The position numbers and the translations under genes were made by a program. From Streptomyces sp. NBC_00878 (GTDB taxonomy: Bacteria > Actinomycetota > Actinomycetes > Streptomycetales > Streptomycetaceae), in the NCBI RefSeq assembly GCF_026341515.1, contig NZ_JAPEOK010000001.1:8866001-8930000 (forward strand): a stretch of 64,000 nt of DNA, read 5' to 3'. Positions 1,419-46,393 of this stretch are shown here, piece after piece. The notes under the pieces were generated by a model. It was given only the letters and a program-made list of their open reading frames with translations, did no database searches and was not told where the DNA came from. Position 1 is the first letter of the stretch; each line of letters opens with the position of its first letter.

Positions 1419-1451
1419 CATCGTCCGACCTCGTTCGGAATGGACACGCAG

Positions 1452-3958: not shown

Positions 3959-4143
3959 GACGACAGACCTTACGGCCCGCCACTGACAGTGCGACACACG
4001 GTGACCTGCGCGCCGCGCGCCACGGCACGGGAAACAGAGGGGGTGCCGGGGCCGAACGCGACGCGACGGCCGCATACCATCGACCACAGGACCTCTCGCC
4101 GTGCATGATCGCGAGCGGGAGACGCGTCGAACGAGGGGACATC

Positions 4144-5772: not shown

Positions 5773-5833
5773 AGGCGATGGCGGGGCCCTCCTGGTGGTC
5801 GGCGGGCCCCGGTGGGACCGGTAGGCTGTTCAC

Positions 5834-6736: not shown

Positions 6737-6790
6737 CCGGCTCAGGCGCCGGCCGCCGTGGCGGCCCTGTGCCGCGTACAACGCTCAAGC

Positions 6791-6841
6791 GTCGTGGCCG
6801 AGTTCCCGGAAGCACCTAGGGAACTCGGCCACGACGTTTTT
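6791..6841 (+). terminator. Strong intrinsic terminator after trmI
   Basis: A 17-bp perfect stem (6791-6807 with 6819-6835) with an 11-nt loop is followed by GTTTTTT. Confidence 0.9.
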
Positions 6842-6861
6842 TCCCTTGTCTGTTCGCCTGA

Positions 6862-6919
6862 CAGTTCACCAGAACCAGGGTCTCCACCGTCAGTTCACCA
6901 GAACCAGGGACCCCACCGT
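6862..6919 (+). repeat. Two 29-bp direct repeats upstream of secreted-protein gene
   Basis: CAGTTCACCAGAACCAGGG occurs at 6862 and again at 6891; each is followed by a 10-nt tail ending CCACCGT, making two head-to-tail 29-bp units that differ at two positions. The array lies between the trmI terminator and the 6992 gene. A promoter-proximal operator or recent duplication are both possible. Confidence 0.75.
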
Positions 6920-6991
6920 TCCCTCGCGATGTGACGTGTGGCACCATGCTGGCCACCCCACCGGCACAGCCCTCACAGGAGACACTTCCTA

Positions 6992-7567: not shown

Positions 7568-7622
7568 GAAGAAAGACAGACGTCGGAAATCGGACAGATT
7601 ATTACGCGGGGTGGCCGCCAGG

Positions 7623-7928
7623 TCACTCCGCGTCGGGGCCGTAGACCTCGACGCTGTCCGAAACCCGACGCACATGGATGCAGTCGCCCGGACACTCCTT
7701 GGCGGAGTCGGCCACATCCCGCAGAAGCGTCAGGGGTACGGGCGTTGTGGCGCCCGGGGCCTGCAGAAGTTCGTCCCCGGAGCTCTTCACGTAGGCCAGG
7801 CCGTCGATGTCCAGCTCGAAGACCTCGGGGGCGTACTGGACGCAGATGCCGTCGCCCGTACAGAGATCCTGGTCGATCCAGACCTCAAGCGCCTCGCCGT
7901 CGACTCCGGCCTCCTGCTGCACGGTCAT
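7623..7928 (-). CDS. Ferredoxin, 3Fe-4S/4Fe-4S single-cluster actinobacterial type
   Basis: The 101-residue acidic protein carries the cluster-binding pattern DLCTGDGICVQYAPEVF (Cys-x5-Cys) and a C-terminal KECPGDCIHV. This matches small soluble ferredoxins that pass electrons to P450s and other oxidoreductases. ATG 7928 is chosen because GGCAGGAG lies directly upstream and the conserved region begins soon after; the longer upstream frame is not protein-like. The gene is divergent from arc, a common arrangement at Streptomyces proteasome loci, but no role for it in protein degradation is established. Candidate partners within this window are the two P450s at 39-46 kb. Confidence 0.92.
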   Translation of the reverse strand: MTVQQEAGVDGEALEVWIDQDLCTGDGICVQYAPEVFELDIDGLAYVKSSGDELLQAPGATTPVPLTLLRDVADSAKECPGDCIHVRRVSDSVEVYGPDAE

Positions 7929-8181
7929 TTCTCCTGCCGTTTCCTGTGCCGAGTGGTCCGAAGGCTGGGGAATCAGGCCAGCTCTGACGGGTGTTGAACA
8001 CTTCGACCCTACCTCCGTCGGCTTCCCAACCACGTTGTGTGGGTATTCCCCTGGCGTGAGGGAGAGCGCAAGGGTGAAGATCGGACACACCTCGACCGTC
8101 TTTGTGATCTAGGGGTTTCAATCGACACCCACCCAGGTAGGGTCTGGAAGCGTCCAGCTCCCCTTGGAGGAGGTGAGGACC

Positions 8182-9948
8182 GTGGCAGCCCACGACGACG
8201 ACATGAACCGCGGCATCCGCCCGGGACGAGGGTCCGACGACCCGTCCGGGCAGATTGCCTACCTTGAGCAGGAGATCGCCGTCCTGCGACGCAAGCTCGC
8301 CGACTCTCCGCGACACACGAGGATTCTCGAAGAGCGGATCGTCGAGCTGCAGACAAACCTGGCCGGCGTGTCCGCGCAGAACGAGCGGCTCGCCAACACC
8401 CTCCGAGAGGCCCGCGACCAGATCGTGGCACTCAAGGAGGAGGTCGACCGGCTCGCACAGCCGCCGGCCGGCTTCGGTGTCTTTCTTACGGCGAACGAGG
8501 ACGGCACGGCCGACATCTTCACCGGGGGCCGCAAGCTCCGGGTGAACGTCAGCCCCAGCGTCGAGCTCGAAGAGCTCCGGCGCGGCCAGGAACTGATGCT
8601 CAACGAAGCTCTCAACGTGGTCGAGGCCATGGAGTACGAGAGCGTCGGCGACATCGTCACCCTCAAGGAGATCCTGGAGGACGGCGAGCGCGCCCTCGTA
8701 CAGGGGCACACCGACGAGGAGCGGGTGGTGCGGCTCGCCGAGCCGCTGCTGGACATCAACATCCGCCCCGGCGACGCCCTGCTGCTCGAACCCCGCTCGG
8801 GGTACGTCTACGAGGTCGTGCCCAAGAGCGAGGTCGAGGAACTCGTCCTCGAAGAGGTCCCGGACATCGGCTACGAGCAGATCGGCGGTCTGGGCGGCCA
8901 GATCGAGATGATCCGCGACGCGGTCGAGCTCCCGTACCTCTACCCGGACCTGTTCAAGGAGCACGAACTGCGGCCGCCCAAGGGTGTCCTGCTGTACGGG
9001 CCTCCCGGATGCGGCAAGACGCTCATCGCCAAGGCCGTCGCCAACTCGCTGGCCAAGAAGGTCGCCGAGGTGACCGGACAGGCCCAGGGCAAGAGCTTCT
9101 TCCTCAACATCAAGGGCCCCGAGCTCCTCAACAAGTACGTCGGTGAGACCGAGCGGCAGATCCGCCTCGTCTTCCAGCGGGCTCGTGAGAAGGCCAGCGA
9201 GGGCACCCCCGTCATCGTCTTCTTCGACGAGATGGAGTCCCTCTTCCGCACCCGTGGATCGGGCGTCAGCTCGGACGTGGAGAACACCATCGTCCCGCAG
9301 CTGCTCGCCGAGATCGACGGCGTGGAGGGCCTGCAGAACGTGGTGGTGATCGGCGCCTCGAACCGCGAGGACATGATCGACCCCGCGATCCTGCGCCCCG
9401 GCCGTCTCGACGTGAAGATCAAGATCGAGCGTCCAGACGCCGAGGCGGCGAAGGACATCTTCGGGAAGTACCTCACCGAGCGGCTCCCGCTGCACTCCGA
9501 CGACGTCGGCGAGCACGGTGGCAGCAAGACCACCACGGTCCAGAGCATGATCCAGACCGCCGTCGAGCACATGTACACCGAGTCCGAGGAAAACCGCTTC
9601 CTCGAGGTCACGTACGCCAACGGCGACAAGGAAGTCCTGTACTTCAAGGACTTCAACTCCGGCGCCATGATCGAGAACATCGTCGGCCGCGCCAAGAAGA
9701 TGGCGATCAAGGACTTCCTCGAGCACAACCAGAAGGGTCTGCGGGTCTCCCACCTGCTCCAGGCCTGCGTGGACGAGTTCAAGGAGAACGAGGACCTGCC
9801 GAACACCACTAACCCGGACGACTGGGCCCGTATCTCCGGAAAGAAGGGCGAACGGATCGTTTACATCCGGACGCTCATCACCGGAAAGCAGGGCGCAGAC
9901 ACCGGACGCTCCATCGACACGGTGGCGAACACCGGTCAGTACCTGTAA
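8182..9948 (+). CDS. arc: Proteasome-associated AAA+ ATPase ARC/Mpa
   Basis: The 588-residue ring ATPase recognises Pup-tagged proteins, unfolds them and threads them into the 20S core. The order is an N-terminal coiled coil (about 15-85, [15 protein letters not shown] onward, the Pup-binding region), tandem OB folds (about 90-240), and an AAA domain with Walker A GPPGCGKT, Walker [11 protein letters not shown] and [11 protein letters not shown]. The C-terminus NTGQYL has the penultimate tyrosine that docks ARC/Mpa on the proteasome. GTG 8182 is preceded by GGAGGTGAGG at good spacing; the upstream TTG lies inside that site. A hairpin with a T-run separates it from dop. Confidence 0.97.
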
Positions 9949-9958
9949 AAGACAGGGT

Positions 9959-10001
9959 GGCTGCGGGTGCCCTCACGGGGTACCCGCAGCCGACTGTTTT
10001 T
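9959..10001 (+). terminator. Hairpin with T-run between arc and dop
   Basis: A 10-bp stem, GGCTGCGGGT (9959-9968) with ACCCGCAGCC (9982-9991), is followed by GACTGTTTTT. Read-through or a separate dop promoter in the ~180 nt before dop would be needed for dop expression. Confidence 0.75.
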
Positions 10002-10181
10002 CAGGGCACAGCTGGAGTGAGCAATGACGCAAATGATCTCCCCACCAGCGCAAAGGCGCTCTAGGCTCTTCGGTACCGCCGAGTCGCGCAGTGCGGGGAC
10101 GGGCACCGCACACGCACCGGAGCGCCAGCGGTACTTGAGCGGCGTCCCCGACCGAGGACGCCGCCGGGCAAGGAGGGCCGC

Positions 10182-11693
10182 ATGACCGTACGGCGAGTAA
10201 TGGGCATCGAGACGGAGTACGGGATCTCCGTCCCCGGCCACCCCAACGCCAATGCCATGCTCACCTCGTCCCAGATCGTCAACGCCTACGCGGCGGCGAT
10301 GCACCGGGCCCGGCGGGCCCGCTGGGACTTCGAGGAGGAGAACCCGCTGCGGGACGCGCGGGGCTTCGACCTCGCCCGCGAGGCCGCCGACTCCAGTCAG
10401 CTCACCGACGAGGACATCGGCCTCGCCAATGTCATCCTCACCAACGGGGCGCGACTGTACGTGGACCACGCACACCCGGAGTACAGCTCTCCGGAGGTGA
10501 CCAATCCGATGGACGCCGTCCTGTGGGACAAGGCCGGCGAACGCATCATGGCGGAGGCCGCCGAGCGCGCGGCCCAGCTGCCCGGCGCCCAGCCGATCCA
10601 CCTCTACAAGAACAACACGGACAACAAGGGCGCCTCGTACGGCACGCACGAGAACTACCTGATGAAGCGGGAGACCCCCTTCTCGGACATCGTGCGCCAC
10701 CTCACGCCGTTCTTCGTCTCACGTCAGGTCGTCACCGGAGCGGGCCGCGTCGGTATCGGCCAGGACGGGCACGAGCACGGCTTCCAGCTCAGCCAGCGAG
10801 CCGACTACTTCGAGGTCGAGGTGGGCCTCGAAACCACGCTGAAGCGCCCGATCATCAACACGCGTGACGAGCCGCACGCGGACGCCGAGAAGTACCGCCG
10901 CCTGCACGTGATCATCGGCGACGCCAACCTCTCGGAGATCTCGACCTATCTCAAGCTCGGCACGACCGCCCTTGTCCTGTCGATGATCGAGGACGGCTTC
11001 ATCGCCGTGGACCTCGCCGTGGACCAGCCCGTACGCACCCTGCACCAGGTCTCCCACGACCCGACCCTCAAGCGCCTGATCACGCTCCGCAGCGGCCGGA
11101 CACTCACCGCGGTCCAGCTGCAGATGGAGTACTTCGAGCTGGCGCGCAAGTACGTCGAGGAGCGGTTCGGCGCGGACGCGGACGAGCAGACCAAGGACGT
11201 GCTCACCCGTTGGGAGGACGTCCTGGGGCGCCTGGAGAGCGATCCCATGAGCCTGGCGGGCGAACTGGACTGGGTGGCCAAGCGGGAGCTCATGGAGGGC
11301 TACCGGCGCCGTGACAGCCTCGACTGGGACGCCGCCAGGCTGCACCTGGTCGACCTCCAGTACGCCGACGTGCGTCCGGAGAAGGGCCTCTACAACCGTC
11401 TCGTGGCCCGTGGCAGGATGAAGCGCCTGCTGGACGAGACGGGCGTGGAGCGGGCCGAGACGAAGCCGCCGGAGGACACGCGCGCGTACTTCCGCGGGCG
11501 CTGCCTGGAGCAGTACGCGGACGACGTCGCGGCGGCCTCCTGGGACTCGGTGATCTTCGATCTGCCGGGCCGGGACTCGCTCCAGCGGGTCCCAACCCTC
11601 GAGCCGCTTCGCGGAACGCGTAATCACGTAAAGGAGCTCCTCGACCGCTGTCGTACGGCGGAAGACCTGGTCAGGGTGCTGTCGGGCAACTGA
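10182..11693 (+). CDS. dop: Depupylase/deamidase Dop
   Basis: The 503-residue member of the carboxylate-amine ligase-like PafA/Dop family removes Pup from conjugates and, where needed, deamidates a C-terminal Pup glutamine. It opens with [13 protein letters not shown], has the nucleotide/metal region [16 protein letters not shown] with the catalytic Asp, the shared [18 protein letters not shown] and [23 protein letters not shown] motifs. The Dop-specific region around [26 protein letters not shown] includes the insertion absent from PafA. ATG 10182 follows AAGGAGG with ideal spacing. Because Pup here already ends in Glu, depupylation is probably its main job. It precedes pup by 155 nt. Confidence 0.96.
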
Positions 11694-11848
11694 AACGGCC
11701 ACCTGGCCGATCCCGCCCGGCAGGGTGGAAAAGGCGCCGTCCGGGAATCATCGAGGTGGCCCCCGGACGTTGTAGCAACTGCGGGGCCGATGTCGGACCC
11801 TGCTTGTAGGGTCTGATCAAGAACGTCGAACCGAGCGGGGTGAGGGTT

Positions 11849-12064
11849 ATGGCGACCAAGGACACCGGCGGCGGACAGCAGAAGGCCACACGCAACACCG
11901 AGGAGGTCGAGGAGGCGCCCGAGGCGCAGGCATCCGAAGACCTCAAGGAGCGCCAGGAGAAGCTGAGCGACGACGTCGACTCGGTTCTGGATGAGATCGA
12001 TGATGTCCTCGAGGAGAATGCGGAGGACTTCGTTCGAAGTTTCGTTCAGAAGGGTGGCGAGTAG
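11849..12064 (+). CDS. pup: Prokaryotic ubiquitin-like protein Pup, ending Gly-Gly-Glu
   Basis: The 71-residue disordered modifier is covalently attached by PafA, through its C-terminal glutamate side chain, to lysines of proteins destined for the proteasome. The central ERQEKLSDDVDSVLDEIDDV is the coiled-coil-forming region recognised by ARC, and the C-terminus is VRSFVQKGGE. The final codon is GAG (Glu), not CAG, so the product is ligation-ready without deamidation. ATG 11849 gives the conserved start MATKDTGGG; an in-frame GTG nine nucleotides earlier is less likely. A hairpin overlaps the stop codon and the endonuclease VII-like gene follows. Confidence 0.97.
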   Translation: MATKDTGGGQQKATRNTEEVEEAPEAQASEDLKERQEKLSDDVDSVLDEIDDVLEENAEDFVRSFVQKGGE

Positions 12065-12081
12065 CCTTCGAATCGAAGGCT
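12063..12081 (+). other. Hairpin overlapping the pup stop codon
   Basis: AGCCTTCG (12063-12070), loop AAT, CGAAGGCT (12074-12081). The left arm includes the last two bases of the pup stop. There is no T-run, so it is more likely an mRNA processing, stability or partial-attenuation element separating high pup expression from the downstream genes. Confidence 0.6.
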
Positions 12082-12115
12082 GCGGGGGGTATTTGGGTTG
12101 GAGAGTGGAGGAAGT

Positions 12116-12691
12116 GTGAAGTGCTGCTCGCGGTGCAAGACATCCAAGCCGCGGGCAGCCTTCGCCAGCAATAAGGCGGCCCGTGACGGGCTGCAGGCCT
12201 ATTGCCGAGAGTGCTGGGCTGCATACCACCAAGCTCGGCAGTTGGCCAAGGGCAAGAATGTGCGGCCCAAGGTGAGTGTGCTTCCGGGGCACAAGTTCTG
12301 CCGAAGCTGCGGAGAGAGCAAGCCGCATGGAGAGTGGCATCGCAACGCCACAGCCTCCGACGGCCTTTCGACCAGTTGCAAGGCGTGCAGAGCGGCCAAG
12401 GGGCGTGCAGGTCACCTCAAGCGCCAGTACGGCATCACCGAAGCCGAGCGTGACGAGATGGTCGCCTCCCAGATGGGCCTCTGCGTGATCTGCCTGAAAG
12501 CTCCGGCCGTTCATGTGGATCACTGCCACCTGACGGGTAGGGTCCGTGGCGTACTGTGCTTCAACTGCAATTCGGCCATCGGCAAGTTGGGAGATGATCC
12601 CGACGCAGTTCGTCGGGCTGCCGCCTACTTGGAAGGATCCTCGTGGAAGCCAACACTCGTAGCACCGGGCGTCTACCAGCTGCCTTCCTGA
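12116..12691 (+). CDS. Recombination endonuclease VII-like HNH nuclease inside the proteasome operon
   Basis: The 191-residue protein has a zinc-binding N-terminus with CxxC pairs (CSRC, CREC, CRSC, CKAC). A C-terminal endonuclease VII-type HNH core reads [19 protein letters not shown] then [20 protein letters not shown]. The motif VDHCH..G..LC..CN is that of phage T4 gp49-like Holliday-junction resolvases and related actinobacterial proteins. GTG 12116 sits just after GGAGGAAGT. The end of the gene overlaps the prcB start by 49 nt, which argues for co-transcription. Similar genes occur between pup and prcB in other Streptomyces as far as I recall. No role in proteolysis is known; a link to DNA repair, as for PafBC, is speculation. 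Confidence 0.88.
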
Positions 12692-13488
12692 CGCCTGGGT
12701 CGTCGTCCTTCATGGACTTCCTGTCCGAGCACCAGCCGGACATTCTGCCGGGCAACCGGCAGCTGCCGCCCATGAAGGGCGTCATCGAGGCGCCGCACGG
12801 GACCACGATCGTGGCTGTCACGTTCCCCGGTGGTGTCGTTCTCGCCGGTGACCGGCGAGCCACCATGGGCAACATGATCGCCCAGCGCGACATCGAGAAG
12901 GTCTTCCCGGCCGACGAGTACTCGGCGGTGGGCATCGCCGGTACGGCGGGTCTGGCCGTGGAGATGGTGAAGCTGTTCCAGCTGGAGCTGGAGCACTTCG
13001 AGAAGGTGGAGGGCGACACGCTCTCCCTGGAGGGCAAGGCGAACCGCCTGTCCACGATGATCCGGTCCAACCTCGCCATGGCCATGCAGGGCCTGGCCGT
13101 GGTCCCGCTCTTCGCGGGGTACGACGTGGACCGCGGGAAGGGCCGCATCTTCTCGTACGACGTGACGGGCGGCCGTTCCGAGGAGCACGGCTTCGCGGCC
13201 ACGGGCTCCGGCTCGATCTTCGCCCGCGGCGCCATGAAGAAGCTGTACAGCAACGACCTGGACGAACAGCAGGCCACGACGCTCGTCGTGCAGGCGTTGT
13301 ACGACGCGGCAGACGACGACTCGGCGACCGGTGGTCCCGATGTCGCCCGCCGGATCTACCCGATCGTCACCGTGATCACCGAAGACGGATTCCGCCGCCT
13401 CACCGACGACGAGTCCTCCGAGATCGCCCGCTCGATCCTGGAGCGGCGCCTGGAGCAGCCCGACGGCCCGCGGGCCGCGCTGCTCTGA
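12643..13488 (+). CDS. prcB: 20S proteasome beta subunit
   Basis: The 281-residue precursor of the catalytic subunit carries a propeptide of about 53 residues. It is removed autocatalytically before Thr54 in [12 protein letters not shown], exposing the N-terminal threonine nucleophile. The following [14 protein letters not shown] supplies the conserved Asp/Arg, and [14 protein letters not shown] and [15 protein letters not shown] are typical beta-subunit segments. It forms the two inner heptameric rings of the core with PrcA. GTG 12643 has GGAAGG six nucleotides upstream and lies inside the preceding nuclease gene, which suggests translational coupling. prcA follows after 57 nt. Confidence 0.97.
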
Positions 13489-13545
13489 CAGCGGCCCTCT
13501 TGCCAAGGTGATCGAGTGACTTCCACAGAAAGGGACGGATAGCCG

Positions 13546-14292
13546 GTGTCGACGCCGTTCTATGTCTCACCCCAGCAGGCCATGGCCGACCGGGCGGAAT
13601 ACGCCCGCAAGGGCATCGCCCGTGGTCGCAGCCTCGTCGTGCTGCAGTTCGCCGACGGCATCGTGTTCGTCGGCGAGAACCCGTCCCGTGCGCTGCACAA
13701 GTTCAGCGAGATCTATGACCGGATCGGTTTCGCTGCCGCAGGCAAATACAACGAATACGAGAACCTCCGGATCGGCGGCGTCCGATACGCCGACCTCCGG
13801 GGCTACACCTACGACCGCGACGACGTGACCGCCCGCGGTCTCGCCAACGTCTACGCCCAGACGCTCGGCACGATCTTCTCGTCCGCGGCCGAGAAGCCGT
13901 ACGAGGTGGAGCTCGTCGTCGCCGAGGTGGGGGAGACCCCCGAGGGCGACCAGATCTACCGCCTTCCGCACGACGGGTCGATCGTGGACGAGCACGGCTC
14001 GGTCGCCGTCGGCGGCAACGCCGAGCAGATCAGCACCTACCTCGACCAGCGGCACCAGGACGGGATGTCGCTCGCCGAGGCGCTCAAGCTGGCCGTTCAG
14101 GCGCTGTCGCGCGATACGAACGGCAGTGAGCGGGAGATTCCCGCGGAGCGGCTGGAGGTCGCTGTGCTGGACCGGACGCGGCCGCAGGCGCGGAAGTTCA
14201 AGCGGATTGTCGGCCGACAGCTCGGTCGGCTGTTGGAGGAGGGTGGGGCGTCCACCGCAGCGGAGGCGGAGGACCCGGAGGACGAGGAGTGA
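13546..14292 (+). CDS. prcA: 20S proteasome alpha subunit
   Basis: The 248-residue alpha subunit forms the outer heptameric rings and gate of the core particle. [27 protein letters not shown] is the conserved N-terminal gating/H0 region, followed by [41 protein letters not shown] and [21 protein letters not shown] strands. The last ~25 residues are acidic and Ala-rich ([18 protein letters not shown]), as in other streptomycetes. It lacks the catalytic threonine of PrcB. The start is GTG 13546. A strong terminator follows at once, ending the pup-prcBA transcription unit. Confidence 0.96.
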
Positions 14293-14315
14293 CCTCCTCG
14301 ACCTGGTAGAGCTTT

Positions 14316-14350
14316 GTGTGCCCCCGGCCTGTTGCAGGCCGGGGGCACAC
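14316..14350. terminator. Strong terminator after prcA
   Basis: A perfect 15-bp stem (14316-14330 with 14336-14350) with loop GTTGC closes the proteasome-subunit operon. No T-run follows; such T-poor hairpins are common in Streptomyces. Confidence 0.8.
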
Positions 14351-14397
14351 GGCGTTCTGGGGCTGCGGGGCGGTATGCCGAGTGCGGGTCGTGGGGG

Positions 14398-14584
14398 TTG
14401 AGCGCGCCGTTCCCCGCGCCCCTTGGTCGTGGGGCCCGGGCCGGGTGTGTCCTGTGCGGGTTGTCGGGGCTGGTCGCGGCCCGCGGCGGAGCCGCAAATG
14501 TCACAGCCCCGCGCGCCTGGAGAGCGTCCGCCGGTGGGCAGGATGCGGGTCGTTCTGGGCTGAGCGCGCCGTTCCCCGCGCCCC
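14398..14584. repeat. Intergenic repeat cluster (diverged copy of the 102-bp element plus a 24-bp direct repeat)
   Basis: TGAGCGCGCCGTTCCCCGCG followed by CCCC occurs at about 14399 and again at 14561. Between them, 14456-14520 read on the minus strand gives GCGCGGGGCTGTGACATT, TGCGGCTCC, GCGACCAGCC and ACAACCCGC, in the same order as the elements at 50960 and 60892, but with the central hairpin replaced. The cluster fills the gap between convergent prcA and the LacI-family gene. Confidence 0.7.
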
Positions 14585-15601
14585 CTAGGGGGCGCCTGGT
14601 GGGGCCGTGGAGCCTCGGACTACCAGGTGTACTGGGATGTCGCCCTCGGTGGGGGCGCGGTTGTCCAGGACCGCCAGGAGGGCTTTCATGCCGCGTTCGC
14701 CGAAGAGGTCGGCGTCCAGGCGGACTGTCGTCAGTTCGGGGTCCAGGGCCGTGGCAAGGGCCAGGTCGTCGAGGCCGGTGACGGAGAGGTCGCCGGGGAT
14801 GCGCAGGCCCAGGCGGCGGGCCGCCTTGTAGGCGCCTGCGGCCAGTTTGTCGTCGTCGCAGACCAGGGCCGTGGGGCGGGGGCCCGGGGCGGCCAGGGCG
14901 GCCTCGGCGGCGGCCAGGGCGCCCTCGATGGAGATCGGGGCGGGGGCCGTGCGGAGTTCTGTGCCGGGGACTGCCGACAGGCGCTCGGCGAGCTCGCGGG
15001 CGCGTACTTCGAAGGTCCAGGACGGGATGTCCGCCGCCAGGTGCAGGAAACGGCGGTGTCCCAGACCGAGCAGGTGCTCCGCGACCTGCCGTACGCCGTC
15101 GCGGATGTCGAGGTTGACGGTCGCCGCGCCGGTGCTGCCCGTCGGATCGCTGTCGAGCATCACCAGGGGCAGCTGGTCGCCCCGGATCGCCGTGAGGGCG
15201 TCGGCGGCCATGGAGGAGGCGATGACGCCGTCCAGGGCGGCCTGTGCGGAGGCGAACGGGTCCCGGGCCGGGCCGATGCCCTCGGGGGAGGGGTAGAGCA
15301 CCACTCCGAAGCCGTGCTCGGCCGCAATCCGGGCCGCGCCGGTGTAGACGCCGGCGAAGAACTCGGTCGTCAGGGCGGGGACCACCAGCAGGACCGTACG
15401 CGTGGTGCCCAGTCGCAGGTTGCGGGCCGCCAGGTTCGGCCGGTAGCCGAGTTCCCGCGCGGCCTCCCGTACGCGCTCCGCCGTCGGCTCGGAGACCCGC
15501 CCGCGCCATTTGTCGCCGAGCACCAGCGAGACGGCCGCCTGGGACACTCCCGCGGCCTGGGCGACGTCACGGCTCGTGGGGCGGGGGCTGCCTGCTGCCA
15601 C
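14585..15601 (-). CDS. LacI-family transcriptional regulator
   Basis: The 338-residue protein has an N-terminal LacI helix-turn-helix with SRDVAQAAGVSQAAVSLVLG and the hinge VREAARELGYRPNLAARNLR. A periplasmic-binding-protein-like effector domain follows (about 65-338: LVVPALTTEFFAGVYTGAARIA, and SVTGLDDLALATALDPELTTV near the end). GTG 15601 puts the HTH at the usual distance from the N-terminus. It is divergent from an MFS transporter gene, so local control of that exporter is the simplest model, probably by a sugar-like effector. The pair interrupts the otherwise proteasome-related gene order between prcA and pafA. Confidence 0.92.
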   Translation of the reverse strand: MAAGSPRPTSRDVAQAAGVSQAAVSLVLGDKWRGRVSEPTAERVREAARELGYRPNLAARNLRLGTTRTVLLVVPALTTEFFAGVYTGAARIAAEHGFGVVLYPSPEGIGPARDPFASAQAALDGVIASSMAADALTAIRGDQLPLVMLDSDPTGSTGAATVNLDIRDGVRQVAEHLLGLGHRRFLHLAADIPSWTFEVRARELAERLSAVPGTELRTAPAPISIEGALAAAEAALAAPGPRPTALVCDDDKLAAGAYKAARRLGLRIPGDLSVTGLDDLALATALDPELTTVRLDADLFGERGMKALLAVLDNRAPTEGDIPVHLVVRGSTAPPGAP

Positions 15602-15644
15602 CGTCGACCTGTCTTTCTGCTGGACTCGCGGACAGCGCACATGG

Positions 15645-15671
15645 TACGTATGACCAGCGAAGTTATACGTA
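15645..15671. promoter_or_regulatory. Candidate LacI-family operator in divergent promoter region
   Basis: The palindromic hexamer TACGTA occurs at 15645-15650 and 15666-15671, 21 bp (two helical turns) apart, in the 138-bp region shared by the LacI-type and MFS genes. Position and symmetry suggest an operator; there is no direct proof. Confidence 0.4.
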
Positions 15672-15739
15672 ACACTTCGAGCGCTTCCGGCGGCGCGAGT
15701 GGGACGACTCGGGCATTCTGGAGCCGAAAGGGGCGGGCC

Positions 15740-16999
15740 ATGGCCATCGGCTATCTGGAGATTCTGCGGGCGAAACACGCGGTGCGGCTGCTTGTCGGCA
15801 CCCTGGTGGGCCGACTGCCGAACGCGACCTCCGCGATCGCCATCGTGCTGTTCATCCGTGCGGAGGGCGGCAGCTACAGCCTCGCCGGAGCGCTCGCCGG
15901 GGTCTACGGAGTGGCCAATGCCGTGGGGCAGCCGCTGCTCGGCCGCCTGGTGGACCTCTACGGGCAGCCGCGGGTGCAGCTGCCCAGCGCGCTCGTCTCC
16001 GCCCTCGCCATGACCGTGTTCGCCCTCACCGGCACCGGGACGCTCCCGCTCGCGTACGCCCTCATAGCCGTTGCCGGACTCTTCACGCCGCCCCTGGAGG
16101 GCGGTCTGCGGGCGCTGTGGCCCTCTGTCCTCCGTAAGGAGGACCAGGTGCACACGGCGTACGCGATGGACGCCGTGGCGCAGGAAGTCATGTTCACCGT
16201 CGGGCCGCTGCTCGTGACGCTGTGCGTGGCCCTGTGGTCCGCGGAGGCCGCGCTGATCATCCTGAACGTCATCGGCGTGCTGGGGGCTCTCTCCGTGGTC
16301 GTCTCGCGGCCCTCGCGCGCGTGGCGTTCGGCGCCGCGCGAGGCGCACTGGCTCGGCGCGCTGCGCTCGCCCGGACTCATCGCCCTGCTCGGCGCGTTCC
16401 TTTTCGTCGGTCTGGCGCTCGGCGCCATCACGGTCGCGAGCGTGTCGTACGCGGACGACCACGGCGGCGACTCGACGTACGGCTGGCTGATGGCGGCCAT
16501 CGGGCTCGGCGCGCTCGTCGGCGGCACGGTCTACGGGGCACGGCAGTGGGGCGGCGCGCCGGAGCGGCGGCTGCGCGTGCTCGTCGCCCTCCTCGCGGTC
16601 TGCTATCTGCCGCTGATGCTCATGCCGGACGCGGTCGCCATGACGGCGCTGATGGCCCTCGCCGGGGTCTTCCTCGCACCCTGTATCGCCTGCGCGTTCA
16701 TCCTCGTCGACCGGCACGCGCCGAGGGGCACGGTCACCGAGGCTTTCTCCTGGCTTGTGACGACGTTCACCGTGGGAGCGTCCGTCGGGACGGGCCTCGC
16801 GGGACCGGTCGTCGAGTGGGGCGGAGCCGTCCGGGGCTTCGCCGTATCGGGTGTCGCGGGGGGTGTCGCCCTGCTGGTTCTGCTGGCCACGGGGCGGGTC
16901 CTCGCAGCTACGGGCGGCGGCACGGTGGTTGAGGGTGGTTCGGAAAATGATCGAAACGGTGCCCCCGAACCCCGTTTCAGCACAGGCCATCAGGCGTAA
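15740..16999 (+). CDS. Major facilitator superfamily transporter
   Basis: The 419-residue protein has about 12 hydrophobic segments. Its N-terminal half holds VYGVANAVGQPLLGRLVDLYGQPRV, an MFS loop 2-3 motif, and the middle loop after about 190 is charged (RPSRAWRSAPREAHW). It resembles drug/sugar exporters of the MFS that actinobacteria keep next to a divergent regulator. ATG 15740 follows AAAGGGGCGGG. The substrate is unknown. The gene ends nine nucleotides before pafA, so read-through from this promoter into pafA is possible and would couple Pup ligation to the LacI-type regulator. Confidence 0.88.
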   Translation: MAIGYLEILRAKHAVRLLVGTLVGRLPNATSAIAIVLFIRAEGGSYSLAGALAGVYGVANAVGQPLLGRLVDLYGQPRVQLPSALVSALAMTVFALTGTGTLPLAYALIAVAGLFTPPLEGGLRALWPSVLRKEDQVHTAYAMDAVAQEVMFTVGPLLVTLCVALWSAEAALIILNVIGVLGALSVVVSRPSRAWRSAPREAHWLGALRSPGLIALLGAFLFVGLALGAITVASVSYADDHGGDSTYGWLMAAIGLGALVGGTVYGARQWGGAPERRLRVLVALLAVCYLPLMLMPDAVAMTALMALAGVFLAPCIACAFILVDRHAPRGTVTEAFSWLVTTFTVGASVGTGLAGPVVEWGGAVRGFAVSGVAGGVALLVLLATGRVLAATGGGTVVEGGSENDRNGAPEPRFSTGHQA

Positions 17000-17008
17000 T
17001 GTTCAGTC

Positions 17009-18370
17009 ATGGACCGCCGCATTTTCGGGCTGGAGAACGAGTACGGCGTCACGTGTACGTTCAGGGGACAGCGTCGCCTGTCTCCCGACGAGGTGGCGCG
17101 GTACCTCTTCCGCCGTGTCGTGTCATGGGGCCGCAGCAGCAATGTCTTTCTGCGAAACGGCGCCCGCCTCTATCTCGACGTGGGATCACATCCGGAATAC
17201 GCGACACCGGAATGTGACAACGTGACGGAACTGGTCACCCACGACAAGGCCGGCGAGCGCATTCTGGAAGGACTCCTGGTAGATGCCGAACGACGCCTGC
17301 ACGAGGAAGGAATCGCGGGCGACGTCTACCTCTTCAAGAACAACACCGACTCGGCGGGCAACTCCTACGGCTGCCACGAGAACTATCTGGTGGCCCGTCA
17401 CGGGGAGTTCTCCCGACTCGCGGACATCCTCATTCCCTTCCTCGTCACGAGGCAGCTTCTCTGCGGTGCCGGCAAGGTGCTGCAGACCCCGCGCGGTGCT
17501 GTGTACTGCGTGAGCCAGCGGGCCGAGCACATCTGGGAGGGCGTCTCCTCGGCGACGACCCGCTCCCGGCCGATCATCAACACCCGCGACGAACCGCACG
17601 CGGACGCGGAGCGCTACCGCCGGCTGCACGTCATCGTCGGCGACTCGAACATGTCCGAGACGACCATGCTCCTCAAGGTCGGCGCCACCGACCTGGTGCT
17701 GCGCATGATCGAGGCGGGCACGGTGATGCGCGACCTGACCCTGGAGAACCCGATCCGGGCCATCCGCGAGGTCAGCCACGACATCACGGGCCGCCGCAAG
17801 GTGCGCCTGGCCAGCGGCCGCGAGGCCTCGGCTCTTGACGTACAGCGCGAGTACTACGAGAAGGCCGTGGACTTCGTCGAGCGCCGCGGTATCCGTACCG
17901 GCGTCGTCGACCAGGTTCTGGAGCTGTGGGGCCGCACGCTCGACTCGATCGAGGCCGAGGACCTCGACCGGATCGGTACCGAAATCGACTGGGTGATGAA
18001 GTACAAGCTCATCGAGCGGTACCGCGCCAAGCACAACATGACCATGTCGAACCCGCGTGTCGCCCAGATAGACCTCGCCTACCACGACATCCACCGTCGC
18101 CGGGGTCTCTACTACCTGCTGGAGAAGCGGGGCCAAGCCGCCCGGATCTGCAACGACTTGAAGATCTTCGAGGGCAAGTCCGTACCGCCGCAGACCACTC
18201 GGGCCCGGCTGCGCGGCGACTTCATCCGGCGCGCTCAGGAACAGCGCCGCGACTTCACCGTCGACTGGGTCCACCTGAAGCTCAACGACCAGGCACAGCG
18301 CACAGTGTTGTGCAAGGACCCGTTCCGTTCCGTCGACGACCGGGTGGAGAAGCTCATCGCCGGAATGTGA
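17009..18370 (+). CDS. pafA: Pup--protein ligase PafA
   Basis: The 453-residue ligase joins the Pup C-terminal glutamate to substrate lysines using ATP. The start [18 protein letters not shown] is diagnostic. The region [17 protein letters not shown] holds the catalytic Asp, and [18 protein letters not shown] and [23 protein letters not shown] are shared with Dop. It lacks the Dop-type insertion. The C-terminal domain ([25 protein letters not shown]) contacts the active site in the family. It follows the MFS gene by nine nucleotides and is separated from prcBA by the LacI/MFS pair. A terminator-like hairpin follows the stop. Confidence 0.97.
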
Positions 18371-39065: not shown

Positions 39066-39219
39066 GCCCGGTACCAGTTCCACCACTTCCACCAGTTCTC
39101 TGAACCGCACGCTGTACGAGTCCCCAGGGCCGGGAGCCGTGTCGTCCCGCACGTCAGTCCCCTCCCGGTCCTCACCAACTCCCCAGACACCGGATCCACT
39201 TCAGCTCGGAGCGATCATC

Positions 39220-40701
39220 GTGACGCCTGAATCCCACTCCCTGACCGGTACGGACGACCCCTCGCTCGGTCCTCCCCCCGGTTGCCCCGCCCACGGCAAG
39301 GGCCCCGGCGGCGTGCGCCGGCTGTACGGCCCCGAGGCGGAGGACCTGGGAGCCGTGTACGAGAAACTCCGCGCCGAACACGGCACGGTGGCCCCCGCGC
39401 TGCTCCACGAGGACGTGCCGATCTGGGTCGTGCTCGGCCACAGCGAGAACATGCACATGGTGCGCACCCCCTCGCAGTACACCCGTGACACCCGGTTGTG
39501 GACCGCCAAGCAGGACGGCACCATCAAGCCCGATCACCCGCTCAGTCCGCACATCACCTGGCAGCCCATCTGCTGCCACGCCGAGGGTGACGAGCACCTG
39601 CGGCTGCGCGGCGCGGTCACCGGCGCCATGTCGACCATCGACCACCGGGGCATCCGCCGCCACATCAACCGCGCGACCCAGCACCTTGTCAACCAGTTCT
39701 GCGAGGAGGGCAGAGCCGACCTGGTCAGCCAGTTCGCCGAGCACCTGCCGATGATGGTGATGTGCGAGATCCTCGGCATGCCCGACGAATACAACGACCG
39801 GATCGTGCAGGCCGCCCGCGACATGCCCACGGGCACCGAGACCGCCATCGCCAGCAACGCGTACATCATGGATGTCCTGATGCGGCTCACCGCCCGCCGC
39901 CGGGCCGCGCCCAAGGACGACTTCACCAGCCACCTCATCAACCACCCGGCGCGGCTCACCGACGAGGAGGTCGGCCAGCATTTGCGCGTCGTCCTGATCG
40001 TCGCGTACGAGAGCACCGCCAACCTCCTCGCCAACGTACTGCGGGTGGTGTTCACCGACCCAGGGTTCCGCGCCCAGCTCAACGGCGGCCAGATGACGGT
40101 GCCCCAGGCGGTCGAGCAATCCCTGTGGGACGAGCCGCCGTTCAGCACCATCCTGGGCTACTTCGCCAAGCAGGAGACCGAGTTGGGCGGCCAGCGCATC
40201 CGCAAGGGCGACGGCCTCATCCTGGGCATCGCGCCGGGCAACGTCGACCCGCTCGTCCGTCCCGACCTCAAGGCCAACATGCAGGGCAACCGCTCCCACC
40301 TCGCCTTCAGCGGCGGTCCCCACGAGTGCCCGGGCCAGGACATCGGCCGCGCCATCGCCGACGTCGGCGTCGACGCGCTGCTGACCCGCCTTCCGGACAT
40401 CCACCTCGCCTGCGCAGAGGACGAGTTGCGCTGGCGGGCGTCCATCTCGAACCGGCACTTGGTGGAACTGCCGGCGAGGTTCGCGCCCAAGCCCCAGCAG
40501 GACGTCAAGGCGCGGCCCGCGCACCAGGTGCCGTCACAGCGTCCGAGCAACTGGCAGGTCGGCAGGCCACAGCCGCAGACAGCGGCTCCGGAGCCCGCCG
40601 CTCCGGTCGCTGCCCCGACGTCGGCGCCGGCACCGACGCCCGAACCGGCCCCCCGACCGGGCGTGTTCCGGCGCATCCAGCGCTGGTGGCGCGGCAATTG
40701 A
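39220..40701 (+). CDS. Conservon cytochrome P450, CYP157-like, lacking the ExxR arginine
   Basis: The 493-residue P450 has the haem loop FSGGPHECPGQDIG with the thiolate Cys. Where the K-helix should read ExxR it has EQSLWDEPP, and the I-helix has VAYESTANLL instead of AGxxT. The missing ExxR is the known peculiarity of the CYP157 family, first noted in S. coelicolor, and CYP157 enzymes occur in conservons. The last ~60 residues are a Pro/Ala-rich tail ending FRRIQRWWRGN. GTG 39220 with GGAG upstream is preferred to GTG 39139. The substrate is unknown; it may act in signalling rather than catabolism. Confidence 0.92.
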   Translation: MTPESHSLTGTDDPSLGPPPGCPAHGKGPGGVRRLYGPEAEDLGAVYEKLRAEHGTVAPALLHEDVPIWVVLGHSENMHMVRTPSQYTRDTRLWTAKQDGTIKPDHPLSPHITWQPICCHAEGDEHLRLRGAVTGAMSTIDHRGIRRHINRATQHLVNQFCEEGRADLVSQFAEHLPMMVMCEILGMPDEYNDRIVQAARDMPTGTETAIASNAYIMDVLMRLTARRRAAPKDDFTSHLINHPARLTDEEVGQHLRVVLIVAYESTANLLANVLRVVFTDPGFRAQLNGGQMTVPQAVEQSLWDEPPFSTILGYFAKQETELGGQRIRKGDGLILGIAPGNVDPLVRPDLKANMQGNRSHLAFSGGPHECPGQDIGRAIADVGVDALLTRLPDIHLACAEDELRWRASISNRHLVELPARFAPKPQQDVKARPAHQVPSQRPSNWQVGRPQPQTAAPEPAAPVAAPTSAPAPTPEPAPRPGVFRRIQRWWRGN

Positions 40702-42273: not shown

Positions 42274-42615
42274 ATGTCTGTGGACCAGGGACCAACTGCG
42301 GGCCAGGCGCTGTCGGCGATGTGCGCGCCAACCGCGGTGAAGGCATTACCCGCGGAGCGGCTTGTCGAACTGGCACCCGAGATCCGGGAGAATCCGGTGG
42401 CCAAGGTGTGCGCCGTGGGCGGGTATCGAGGCCCGAGCCTGGGCGTGGTCGGGCTTGCCTGTTCCAAGGCTGCCAAGTGCACGATCGAACGCCAGATGAT
42501 CGCCCGGAGACACGACGCCGTCCTGGCCCTCCTCAACACCCTCACGTCCCGGCCCCCGGCCCCCGTCCCGCACCTGAGGCGTCTGGAGGACAGCACCACA
42601 CGGAGGGCTTCATGA
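42274..42615 (+). pseudogene. dxs: Truncated dxs (1-deoxyxylulose-5-phosphate synthase) remnant
   Basis: The open frame has 113 codons, against about 630 in a working DXS. Residues 20-50 match the DXS N-terminus closely: VKALPAERLVELAPEIRE, VAKVCAVGGYRGPSLGVV corresponds to the family's (L)KALP..L..LA.EIR..LV..V..TGGHLGPNLGVVEL. The DTGHQ thiamine-binding and catalytic regions that should follow are missing, and the rest of the frame is unrelated. The frame ends in an ATGA overlap with the ispH remnant, suggesting the two once formed an operon. DXS makes the first intermediate of the MEP isoprenoid pathway. Confidence 0.72.
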
Positions 42616-42836
42616 CCCCATCGGGCAAACGCGTGTTGCTGGCCGCCCCCGCGGTTTCTGTGCTGGCGTCGTCCGCGTCATCCAGACCGTGGAGCGGACC
42701 CTGGAATGGCACGGGCCGCGCGTGGGAGCGGTCTCCGATGAGGAGATCGACCGGGTTCCCGCTGGGGCGGTCGTCGTCTTCTCTGCCTATGGTGCCGCTC
42801 GGGTCAGCAGCAGAGTGCAGCAAAGGAAGGTACGCA
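42612..42836 (+). pseudogene. ispH: Frameshifted, truncated ispH remnant
   Basis: ATG 42612 reads MTPSGKRVLLAAP, then one C is missing from a cytosine run near 42646-42650. The frame beginning at 42650 continues RGFCAGVVRVIQTVERTLEWHGPR, the IspH N-terminus with the first Fe-S cysteine. DEEIDRVPAGAVVVFSAYGAA, equivalent to the family's VPEG..V.FSAHGVAP, follows after an apparent ~25-residue deletion. Nothing matches after that, so some 70% of the ~330-residue enzyme is gone. IspH catalyses the last MEP-pathway step to IPP/DMAPP. The match is clear enough to exclude coincidence. Confidence 0.8.
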
Positions 42837-43040
42837 GTGACCGACAGTCCACGGCAGGGAAAGTCGTCCTGATCACTGGGGCCGGCTCGGACATCAGTGC
42901 CGCGAAGGGCCGCAACGGAAGAGAACTTCGATCGCGTTCTGGCCGTCCATCTCGAAGGTGTGTTTGGCTGTGTCTCAAGTACGAGACTGCCCACATGCTG
43001 CAGCGAGGGCACAGGCCCGTCGACGGTAGTTGGACCGCCG
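42837..43040 (+). pseudogene. Broken short-chain dehydrogenase/reductase remnant
   Basis: GTG 42837, preceded by AAGGAAGG, starts MTDSPRQG. The next frame gives GKVVLITGAGSDIS, the cofactor-binding start of an SDR. A third frame gives TEENFDRVLAVHLEGVFGCV and the previous one KYETAHMLQRG, which are the alpha-E/N-(x)n regions of SDRs. So at least two frameshifts and a deletion of about 70 residues, including the region between the Rossmann start and the NAG motif, have inactivated it. The YxxxK catalytic part is not found. It is probably a former tailoring enzyme of the same cluster. Confidence 0.75.
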
Positions 43041-43172
43041 GCTGGCCCACCGCCGAGACCCCACCTACACAGCGGAGCGACCTCACCCTTACCGCCAGCC
43101 CATGCGCCAAGTCCTTGACCAGCAAGGGGTAATCCGGCTTTCAGTACCCGCTCTCAGGTTCTCTTGGAGATG

Positions 43173-44960
43173 ATGGTGAATACCGCATATGACCTGTGGG
43201 ATGCGAGGGGCGCAGGCCTTGTTACGCGTGAGACTGACGCCCTGTTGTCCAACGTGCACACGGTCGTCAACGATGACCGCCCAGCTGGGGACGGTGCGGC
43301 AACCTATCTGGTTCGCCAACCCGAGTACCGGCCGTACATAGACACGGAGGTGCCGTGCGACCGTGAGGGATTACGCATGGCTGCACATGGCCTGCAGATA
43401 GTCCGCTCACCGCATGTACAAGCCAGCCTTCAAGCCAGCCCGGCGGGCGTCACATTACGCCGGGTCACCACGAGGCAGGCCACCCTCTGGGCCCCGGAGG
43501 GGATACCCGCCGCGCGGCAGATGGCGCGGATAGGCGCGGCATCTCCGCGTAAGGGCAATGAAGCGAAACGGCTGTGGGCGGAGTACCTCAGGCGTAACCC
43601 GAACTCGGCCGACCTCGTCATGACCATGCGAGAGTACCTTGGCGCTGTCTTCTCCTGGACATTCCAACGAGGTACTGGCATTGAGCTCCGGGACCTGTTC
43701 GGATCGATGCTGACCTTCACGCTGGCCGCCGACTTCGTGGGCGCGGCCGACGGGTCCGGCGTGGACAAGGAGCATACCTATCTCATGGCGGCCAGCGAGG
43801 GGTATGCCTGTCTCTCGGGAAAGGCCGCCAATCGTATGGCGCGGGAGATGGCTCTGGGGGCCGGCCTCACGTTTGCGAAGAACGCATTTCGATCCGCCGC
43901 CGAAGAAGCCGAAAGCACCAGCGGCGACGAAGCCACGGTCACCCCAGCCCAGTTCGCCGTGGCCCGCTGGTGGGAGGGATTCTTCCCGCCGCTGTTGCGC
44001 GTGACCTTCGGGACCGCCCCCTACCGGCACCTCACCGACGACGCCGGCACGTATGTCCCCGCCCTGGAATGCCAGGCCATCGCCCGCGTTCTCGGCAATG
44101 TCCTGCGCTACAACGATGTCATCGACGCCATACCGGACTACGTCAACCATGAGACCGCCAACGAGTTCCTGCTCGCTCTCGCCTACGGCTCCACCGAAAG
44201 CACACTCGGGTTCGCTGACGCCCTCGCCGAGGCGACTGACGCCGCCCTGGCCTGTGAGTGCGGACAGCCCGGTCACGACGAAGCAGCCGAGCACACCATG
44301 GGCTTCACCTTGTTCTATCTCCTCGTCCCCCGCTACAACGCCCGCAGGCAACTCGTCGCGCTCACCGGCGCGGGAGGCGACATCCGCCGCGCGTTCACCC
44401 CGCCTCGCCCTGGCGAACGGCTGCGCTCCACCCAGTACAAGCTCGACCCCGGTCTTGCCCTGCACACCCCTGACTGGCAGCCGCAGTGGCAGCCCGGGAC
44501 ACGCAGCATCGACGAAACAGCCTTGAGGGCCGCTCGGCGCGCCCTCATCGGACCCACAAGCAGTTCATGCATCAAGGCAGCCGCCGATGTGCTGTCCCGC
44601 TGTGACCGCGTCGACAGCGCCGAATCGCTCAACTGCCTCGCCGAAGGATGGCAACGCCTGTTTGACACCGCACTCGCCACCAACGGCATCAGTCACCTTA
44701 CGTACGCGGCACCGCTGCGTGATCTCGTCGGCCGCATCTGGCGGCACACCATCCTCGACTCCCAAACCGATCAGGACGCACTGCTGTTCATCGATACGGA
44801 TATCGCCATCCGCAACACTTTCAGCCTTTCCGCCGATCATGGACTACGGCTGCGCCGCGCTTTCTTCGGCGTCACCACCAGCGCCGTCGAGTACTCCGGC
44901 TTCAGCCCTTACCGGCGTCTGGCCAACGGCATCAGCGCTCTGTGCCGATCAGAGGAATGA
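43173..44960 (+). CDS. Uncharacterised 595-residue protein, possible isoprenoid-synthase-like enzyme
   Basis: I do not recognise the family. The protein is mostly helical-looking and soluble, with no signal peptide or membrane helix. Residues 312-327 read RYNDVIDAIPDYVNHE, which resembles the second metal-binding (NSE/DTE-like) motif of class I terpene synthases and fungal NDxxDxxxD synthase-like proteins. A candidate first Asp site is around D187-D193 (AADFVGAAD) in a predicted helix, but it is not a canonical DDxxD. The position before a terpene-type P450 and after dxs/ispH remnants supports a terpenoid role. The frame is intact. GGAG at 43166 can serve ATG 43173 or GTG 43176. Base composition is less GC-rich than its neighbours, suggesting transfer. 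Confidence 0.6.
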   Translation: MVNTAYDLWDARGAGLVTRETDALLSNVHTVVNDDRPAGDGAATYLVRQPEYRPYIDTEVPCDREGLRMAAHGLQIVRSPHVQASLQASPAGVTLRRVTTRQATLWAPEGIPAARQMARIGAASPRKGNEAKRLWAEYLRRNPNSADLVMTMREYLGAVFSWTFQRGTGIELRDLFGSMLTFTLAADFVGAADGSGVDKEHTYLMAASEGYACLSGKAANRMAREMALGAGLTFAKNAFRSAAEEAESTSGDEATVTPAQFAVARWWEGFFPPLLRVTFGTAPYRHLTDDAGTYVPALECQAIARVLGNVLRYNDVIDAIPDYVNHETANEFLLALAYGSTESTLGFADALAEATDAALACECGQPGHDEAAEHTMGFTLFYLLVPRYNARRQLVALTGAGGDIRRAFTPPRPGERLRSTQYKLDPGLALHTPDWQPQWQPGTRSIDETALRAARRALIGPTSSSCIKAAADVLSRCDRVDSAESLNCLAEGWQRLFDTALATNGISHLTYAAPLRDLVGRIWRHTILDSQTDQDALLFIDTDIAIRNTFSLSADHGLRLRRAFFGVTTSAVEYSGFSPYRRLANGISALCRSEE

Positions 44961-45013
44961 AACAGAACAGGACATGCGGCGCTCCGTCTCCCCTCAGCAG
45001 AATCGGAGTGATC

Positions 45014-46393
45014 ATGAAGGAATTGCGTTCGATCCCCGTAGCCTCCAGCGCCCTTCCGGTGGCCGGTCATCTGGTGCCGCTGATACGTGACCCGCTGGTG
45101 TTCCTCAACTCACTACCCGTCTGCGGAAAGCTGGTCCGTATTCGTATGGGTCCCCTCACCGTGGTGGTGATCTGCGATCCCGAACTCACCCGTCAGGCTT
45201 TGCTTGACGATCGCGTCTTCGACAAGGGCGGCCCGCTTTTCGATCGCGTACGGGAGGCAATAGGGGACGGTCTCACCAGCTGCCCGCACAGCTCGCATCG
45301 TCGACTGCGGCGACTGGCCCAGCCGGCTTTTCACCCTGGTCGGCTCCCTGGCTACGCGCAGGCCATGACCTTATGCATCGACCAGGTGACCGGTTCCTGG
45401 CGAGAGGGACAGACCATCGACGTTCCCGCCGAGACGATGACGATCACCTCCAAGGGCACGGCCGCCACGCTGTTCTCGAACACGCTGCCCCCAGCCCGGC
45501 TCGGTCAACTCCTCAACGACGTCACCACTATCTTCGACGGCTTCTACCAGCGCATGCTCCTCATCCCCCCGCTGGACCGGCTCCCCGTCCCAGGCAACCG
45601 CGCGTACCTGAGGGCTCGCGCCCGCTTGCGCGACACCTGCGACCAGATCATCGCCCAACGTCGCGCCGACGGCGCTGACCATGGTGACCTGCTGTCGGCC
45701 CTGATCGCGGCGTGCGATCCCGAAGACGGCGGCCGCGGTATGACCGACGCAGAAATCAGCGACGCGATCCTTGCCTTCTTCCTGGCCGGGACGGAAACCA
45801 CAGCCAGCGTCCTGGCCTGGGCACTGGACTTGCTCGCCCGGCACCCCGAGATCGAGCAGCGGCTCCACGCCGAGGTCGACACCGTCCTGGGCGGTGCCCC
45901 CGCCACCCACGTCGACCTGCCCCGCCTGACACTGACCGCACGCATCATCACCGAAACACTCCGGTTCAGTTCACCGGCCTGGTTGCTCACGCGCACGGTC
46001 ACCGTCGACACCCGCCTGGGCGGGCACCTGTTGCCCGCCGGGACCAGCATCGCCTACAGCCCCTACCTCATACATCACAGGCCCGATCTCTACGATCAGC
46101 CCGAAACCTTCGACCCCGACCGGTGGGACGGAAAACGCTCCCAACCGCCCCGCCCCGCCTTCATCCCCTTCGGTACCGGCGCCCGCAAATGCATCGGCGA
46201 CACGTTCGCCATGACCCAGGCCATCCTCGCCCTCGCCACCATCACTGCCCGATGGCGCCTGCAACACCTGCCCCGCCAGCAGGTCCGACCTGCCTTGGGC
46301 GCGGTGTTGAGGCCCCGCGAACTACGTATGCGGGCGACGCCTCGCACCGTGACGCACACGCCTGCCGCAGAGGTCCCCAAGCCCGCCCCTTAG
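45014..46393 (+). CDS. Cytochrome P450, resembling terpene-tailoring CYP170-type enzymes
   Basis: The 459-residue P450 has all canonical motifs: I-helix AFFLAGTETTASVLAW, K-helix ITETLRFSSPAW (ExxR), PERF-like FDPDRWDG and haem loop FIPFGTGARKCIGDTFAM. The N-terminus (PVAGHLVPLIRDPLVFLNSL, VRIRMGPLTVVVICDPELT) and the HRRLRRLAQPAFHPGRLPGYAQAM region follow the pattern of CYP170A1, the albaflavenone synthase that sits next to epi-isozizaene synthase in S. coelicolor. It is probably a terpenoid oxidase acting on the product of the preceding gene. ATG 45014 follows GGAGTGATC. Ferredoxin partners are not adjacent. Confidence 0.9.
   Translation: MKELRSIPVASSALPVAGHLVPLIRDPLVFLNSLPVCGKLVRIRMGPLTVVVICDPELTRQALLDDRVFDKGGPLFDRVREAIGDGLTSCPHSSHRRLRRLAQPAFHPGRLPGYAQAMTLCIDQVTGSWREGQTIDVPAETMTITSKGTAATLFSNTLPPARLGQLLNDVTTIFDGFYQRMLLIPPLDRLPVPGNRAYLRARARLRDTCDQIIAQRRADGADHGDLLSALIAACDPEDGGRGMTDAEISDAILAFFLAGTETTASVLAWALDLLARHPEIEQRLHAEVDTVLGGAPATHVDLPRLTLTARIITETLRFSSPAWLLTRTVTVDTRLGGHLLPAGTSIAYSPYLIHHRPDLYDQPETFDPDRWDGKRSQPPRPAFIPFGTGARKCIGDTFAMTQAILALATITARWRLQHLPRQQVRPALGAVLRPRELRMRATPRTVTHTPAAEVPKPAP

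Follow-up and report, generated by a model that had tools for sequence, protein, structure and literature searches.

A putative class I terpene synthase of an unrecognised family, encoded beside a cytochrome P450 in Streptomyces

The stretch of DNA analysed here (the window) is a 64-kb piece of the main contig of Streptomyces sp. NBC_00878 (positions 8,866,001-8,930,000; genome 11.1 Mb). At 42.3-46.4 kb it holds a short series of gene relics followed by two intact genes, and the features assigned in this interval all lie on the + strand. We consider it likely that the product of the first intact gene is a class I terpene synthase from a family not so far recognised; the second encodes a cytochrome P450. 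Computation in this work showed that the gene is intact and that its family is conserved and under purifying selection, and gave the predicted fold, the motif register and the gene neighbourhood.

The intact reading frame runs from 43173 to 44957 and comprises 595 codons, and the residue numbers used below count from 43173. Judging by the N-termini of relatives, the likelier start is the GTG at 43176, which would give a divergent class I terpene synthase-like protein of 594 residues (43176-44960; the frame is open from 43164). A first-pass annotation, made from the letters and their open reading frames, had reported an intact 595-residue gene with RYNDVIDAIPDYVNHE at residues 312-327, and we see both, with the start probably one codon later. 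The window protein has no family match in Pfam or NCBIfam and no sequence match in the PDB, and a profile of 16 family members searched against PDB sequences gave a best E value of 0.74. PF19086, the Pfam family of class I bacterial terpene synthases, gave no match up to E 10 for the window protein or for the relatives P0004, P0006, P0008 and P0009.

A search of 5.8 billion proteins returned nine entries, the window protein among them, with the other eight being 36-89% identical to it. Profile repeats of this search, including one with a 16-row profile, returned the same nine proteins; each search scored just the 7,993 candidates with the most shared words, and remoter members may escape. The named relatives are annotated as 'hypothetical protein' and come from Streptomyces, Kitasatospora and Actinomadura. 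In a sample of the genus the gene family was found in 9 of 392 genomes, own genome counted, with three of these nine copies broken or fragments; decayed or fragmentary copies are present in genomes G175, G137 and G122. At the level of the bacterial family it was found in 3/297 genomes, again counting the window's own, and samples of the phylum (396 genomes) and class (296) contained the window's own copy alone. A search of genome contigs gave no match when a single protein was the query, and one locus when an alignment was used. The known hosts are Streptomycetaceae plus one Actinomadura, and two family members sit on linear plasmid records. For two close pairs of relatives, the window copy not among them, the ratio of nonsynonymous to synonymous substitution rates (dN/dS) is 0.27 and 0.32, and the family protein is therefore under purifying selection. 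The window gene belongs to a genuine conserved family.

Structural models of the window protein and of P0009 both find their best structural matches among class I isoprenoid enzymes, mostly terpene synthases. The matched structures include T-muurolol synthase (9hqd), 1-epi-cubenol synthase (9hqb), CotB2 (7ao1) and epi-isozizaene synthase (7kjd). Comparison with the class I isoprenoid synthase folds had been set beforehand as a check, and the models agree with it, as the protein is predicted to adopt the class I all-helical isoprenoid synthase fold. Foldseek searches of the PDB gave no match at E ≤ 0.001 for either model, and the same was true of the first model against viral models; in one Foldseek search the top-placed terpene synthase stood at rank 31, with an E value of 1.7. 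From the secondary structure and predicted local distance difference test (pLDDT) values of the model, residues 446-595 (44508-44957), about 150 in number, are predicted to form an additional helical region at the C-terminus, and in the P0009 model this region is also helical and confident.

For comparison of motifs, a canonical set of thirteen class I synthases from the same genomes was used, comprising 12 of the 20 stretches fetched and one synthase from locus L028, with L054 and seven others left out. In the alignment of this set, D81, D82, S230, R314 and Y315 are invariant, and R180, N226, D227, E234 and N242 are almost so. The comparison of the 16-member family profile with the canonical profile is not significant overall (Prob 1.2%, E 0.042). 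In the default profile alignment, R265 falls on R180, N314-D315-xx-D318-xxx-D322 on N226-D227-xx-S230-xxx-E234, and N330 on N242. An alignment at lower stringency adds D187 on D81 and R387-Y388 on R314-Y315, in stretches of low confidence.

Read in this register, D187-x5-D193 (43731-43751) would be the counterpart of the first Asp-rich metal motif. Position 188, where the second Asp of DDxxD would stand, is F in nine members, Y in six and Q in one, so that a strict DDxxD is absent. R265 (43965-43967) would correspond to the diphosphate-sensing Arg, and lies 49 residues upstream of N314 where about 46 are expected. As residues 312-327 align in register with N226-D227-xx-S230-xxx-E234, we take this stretch to be an NSE-type metal site, which together with the Asn at 330 spans 44112-44162. 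The first-pass annotation had cited it for an isoprenoid enzyme; the amendment here is that it lines up with the NSE-type site. Its assignment as the first DDxxD site was also considered, and rejected because the register fits the NSE site. Across the 16 members, position 314 is N (12) or D (4), 315 is D (11) or E (5), 318 is D (14) or G (2) and 330 is N (15) or S (1). The family motif [ND][DE]xx[DG]xxxD thus differs from the consensus (N,D)Dxx(S,T)xxxE in having D or G in place of S/T and D in place of E, and the strict form is not kept. R387-Y388 (44331-44336), 73 residues after N314, would represent the Arg-Tyr (RY) pair. D187, D193, R265, D322, R387 and Y388 are constant in 16/16 members.

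A further motif, C361-x-C363-x4-H368-x-E370-xx-E373 (44253-44291), is likewise invariant in all 16 members. It lies just upstream of the RY pair and has the appearance of a possible metal site, and we know of no counterpart in terpene synthases.

The spacing pattern R ... [ND][DE]xx[STGD]xxx[DE]-x7-N ... RY was drawn up after the alignment had been seen. It fits 15 of the 16 members (that of L022 is missed) and 9 of the 13 canonical enzymes, and of 32,000 shuffled member sequences it fits 9. The fetched DNA contains 453 open reading frames of 300 codons or more, and the 19 that fit the pattern consist of nine family members and ten terpene synthases. The link to class I terpene synthases rests on fold, register and context, and not on sequence similarity.

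Gene context was tallied for nine intact neighbourhoods, the window included. The decayed copy at L026 and the fragments at L027 and L028 were left out, as were P0002, P0003 and P0005-P0009; L021 and L031 are the same record, as are L024 and L032, and each was counted once. Thirty selected neighbouring reading frames were run against Pfam. It had been suggested that homologues might co-occur with intact dxs, ispH and P450 genes. We see that an intact dxs, ispG, ispH, prenyl synthase, mevalonate-pathway or P450 gene adjoins the member in eight of the nine neighbourhoods, so the suggestion stands with the amendment that precursor supply can be of the methylerythritol phosphate (MEP) or the mevalonate type. 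A prenyl synthase lies in the same gene run in 5/9, and a P450 gene directly behind the member in 4/9.

At L023, dxs, ispG, prenyl synthase, ispH and the member follow one another on a single strand. At L030 the order is a GHMP-kinase piece, diphosphomevalonate decarboxylase, a second GHMP kinase, 3-hydroxy-3-methylglutaryl-CoA (HMG-CoA) reductase, HMG-CoA synthase, prenyl synthase and the member; this run from mevalonate genes through prenyl synthase to the member (14-8067) belongs to a second genus of the family (G780). In both of these loci the member stands last in a series of genes devoted to precursor supply, and no PF19086 cyclase is near. The prenyl synthase is followed by the member at L021 and L029, where the L029 contig stops just after the member, and by the member and then a P450, with a gap of about 0.8 kb, at L033. 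At L024 and L025 the member is followed by a P450, and a P450 also lies behind the decayed copy at L026. The exception is L022, where no isoprenoid gene was seen in a contig that covers just 1.6 kb upstream; a 289-residue membrane protein without a Pfam match is encoded directly downstream of this member (3642-4511). Adjacency by chance is unlikely because the 11 genomes searched hold just 3 to 17 prenyl synthase matches each.

PF19086 synthases are present in all 11 genomes searched (the genome of L033 was outside this search), and lie near the family only at the L028 fragment. The terpenoid region around that fragment (7546-17979) is rearranged: it contains ispG, a prenyl synthase and two PF19086 synthases and, besides these, one frame that is a shortened ispH and one that is an ispH/halogenase-like hybrid. 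The YIM 121038 plasmid carries squalene/phytoene synthase and squalene-cyclase-like genes at a distance of 4-6 kb from its member, with transposases around (L021, 2895-5692; L031, 13745-16506), so other cyclases are not absent at L021.

In six prenyl synthases of these loci, the residue at -5 relative to the first Asp motif is F and that at -4 is A or C, which we take to be a C20-favouring pattern. For the three prenyl synthases tested, the best NCBIfam model was a farnesyl/geranyl synthase, under its cut-off. The chain length of the substrate would be C15 or C20, with C20 slightly favoured.

The P450 gene (45014-46393) starts 53 nt downstream of the synthase-like gene. From the likelier start, ATG 45014, it would encode 459 residues, and it matches PF00067 with 252.6 bits; we regard the product as a likely partner enzyme. 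The NCBIfam models that it matches best are those for pentalenene oxygenase and albaflavenone monooxygenase, and it stays under the cut-off of each, with scores of 387.8 of 700 and 428.2 of 800 bits for the CYP170A1/CYP183 equivalogs. The closest solved chain is 3dbg (294.7 bits), presumably CYP170A1, in line with the initial description of an intact CYP170A1-like P450. Pairwise identity among the P450s of the window, L024, L025, L026 and L033 is 55-89%. The window P450 is 60-72% identical to those beside the four relatives (L024 72%, L033 60%); for the synthase, identity between the window protein and the members at L024, L025 and L033 is 36-54%. These P450 comparisons support oxidation of a terpene as the partner's probable role. 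A second P450-like frame with a proline-rich C-terminal tail was seen by eye at 39139-40701 of the window, and the genome search does not list it under PF00067.

Upstream of the synthase-like gene lie the remains of what look like precursor genes. An N-terminal piece of dxs (42334-42456) is 61% identical over 41 residues to the intact dxs of L023 (E 2e-7), and the Pfam domain DXP_synthase_N matches the surrounding frame, 42274-42612, at E 1.5e-5. In frame after it, 42472-42612 probably represents the C-terminus of a prenyl diphosphate synthase. This 47-residue end of the upstream fragment is 36% identical to the prenyl synthase of L028, with both C-termini reached (E 0.006), and none of 500 shuffles equalled the match for L028, L029 or L030. 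Against this assignment, 9/500 shuffles equalled the match for L021, 50/500 for L023 and 172/500 for L033, so that the statistics are mixed and lend it weak support.

The fragment overlaps the next relic by a stop/start ATGA (42612-42615), and at L028 prenyl synthase and ispH share the same type of 4-base overlap. The first-pass annotation had described this as a dxs-ispH junction. The overlap is there, but because the last 47 residues resemble a prenyl synthase C-terminus, the junction is probably one of a prenyl synthase relic running into ispH. The ispH relic with its change of frame (42617-42832) matches the ispH of L023 at E 1.9e-7, and its sub-stretch 42647-42799 matches that of L028 at E 1.5e-10; its start is a 12-residue piece in a different frame (E 0.047 in a smaller search). 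The dxs fragment and the frameshifted ispH predicted earlier are therefore present. The remnant of a short-chain dehydrogenase/reductase (SDR) did not hold up: tblastn with four SDRs gave a best E of 0.09, at an unrelated place, and just short look-alike words were found by eye. The idea that precursor genes were lost while synthase and P450 were kept fits the dxs and ispH relics, with a probable prenyl synthase relic added, and the two intact downstream frames.

In the mechanism that we propose, a prenyl diphosphate synthase would supply a prenyl diphosphate (C15 or C20), which would bind by way of Mg2+ coordinated by D187, perhaps also D193, and by N314/D318/D322. R265 and R387-Y388 would grip the diphosphate, and its loss would give an allylic cation that cyclises within the helical barrel. 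The terpene would then be oxidised by the P450 encoded 53 nt downstream. Catalysis, metal ligation, substrate and product are what we infer for this protein. As the precursor genes that belonged to the cluster itself (dxs, ispH and probably a prenyl synthase) have decayed in this genome, substrate and flux would depend on the general pool.

Several results weigh against a terpene synthase. Homology to terpene synthases was sought at the sequence level by profile and hidden Markov model (HMM) comparison, and the attempt failed, with an HMM of the canonical set scoring family members no higher than shuffled copies. No sequence or Foldseek match is significant, and the structural Z is within the range of helical bundles. 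These results would also suit a helical protein with a tailoring or binding role in terpenoid clusters, one that synthesises no isoprenoid and just resembles the class I arrangement, as would the invariant CxCx4H motif, which is without explanation. There is a precedent in EutC, a hypothetical protein of another terpenoid cluster that, according to PMC11574762, turned out to be a tailoring enzyme. On the other side stand the best-matching fold, the motif register and the isoprenoid genes nearby, and we regard such a protein as highly improbable. A prenyltransferase of class I fold, passing an ionised prenyl chain to an acceptor so that the P450 works on a prenylated product, would share the fold and the context. 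The class I-fold prenyltransferases DabA and Ord1 rank below cyclases for the window model and are not among the best 50 entries in a second comparison, and this explanation appears distinctly unlikely to us.

It is also conceivable that the family is terpene synthase-like but that the window copy no longer functions in a pathway, the gene and its P450 being in the course of loss from a decaying cluster. The adjoining relics of dxs, ispH and probably prenyl synthase point this way, as do the decayed or fragmentary copies of the three other genomes named above. However, both frames are intact, every catalytic position is kept, and four PF00348 matches elsewhere in the genome are general prenyl synthases, so we think this unlikely. 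Overall, the computational evidence of fold, motif register and context supports a terpene synthase, that is, an unrecognised lineage of a known enzyme kind, as the first-pass annotation had proposed in calling the protein a terpene cyclase or related isoprenoid enzyme of an undescribed family.

On balance we lean towards a wider view, in which this is an undescribed lineage of class I terpene synthases, isolated in sequence and overlooked by the profiles used in genome mining, whose metal site is altered and which has both an invariant CxCx4H and an additional C-terminal region. Chromosomes and large plasmids would both carry its genes, in clusters some of which may come with an MEP or mevalonate supply of their own, and together with a co-conserved P450 the genes would make undescribed terpenoids. 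No paper on the family was found among open-licence papers; subscription papers could hold one. PF19086 is stated, in a passage of PMC10055836, to cover type I synthases very well. Surveys based on PF19086 would miss the family, which was also unseen by the Pfam, NCBIfam and PDB sequence searches made here. If its members are active, there are more bacterial terpene synthases than profile-based surveys count, and the few ready-made clusters could be expressed to look for new skeletons. Its metal site, altered as it is, and its CxCx4H motif would then offer fresh material on how class I enzymes are constructed.

With the class I bacterial terpene synthases of PF19086, the family shares the best-matching predicted fold, the first-Asp, sensor Arg, NSE-type and RY positions in register, and adjoining prenyl synthase, precursor and P450 genes. 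It differs from them in lacking significant sequence similarity and any Pfam or NCBIfam match, in having F/Y/Q for the second Asp and [ND][DE]xx[DG]xxxD for the NSE motif, and in its C-terminal helical region of about 150 residues and its CxCx4H. P450s of the CYP170A1/CYP183 type provide the top NCBIfam models for the window P450, yet its scores are well under 800 and 700 bits, and it partners an unrelated-looking synthase. The nearest published parallel that we found is the gromomycin cluster. Its GroF and GroH are hypothetical proteins that were identified as terpene synthase-like through modelling (PMC12105684, PMC13010261), and there too unrecognised synthase-like proteins lie beside a polyprenyl synthetase and a P450 (PMC12105684). 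The two systems were compared by neighbours and distribution, not by sequence: the gromomycin cluster has three Rieske proteins and is reported from Actinomycetota, Myxococcota and cyanobacteria (PMC13010261), whereas the family described here was found only in Streptomycetaceae and one Actinomadura.
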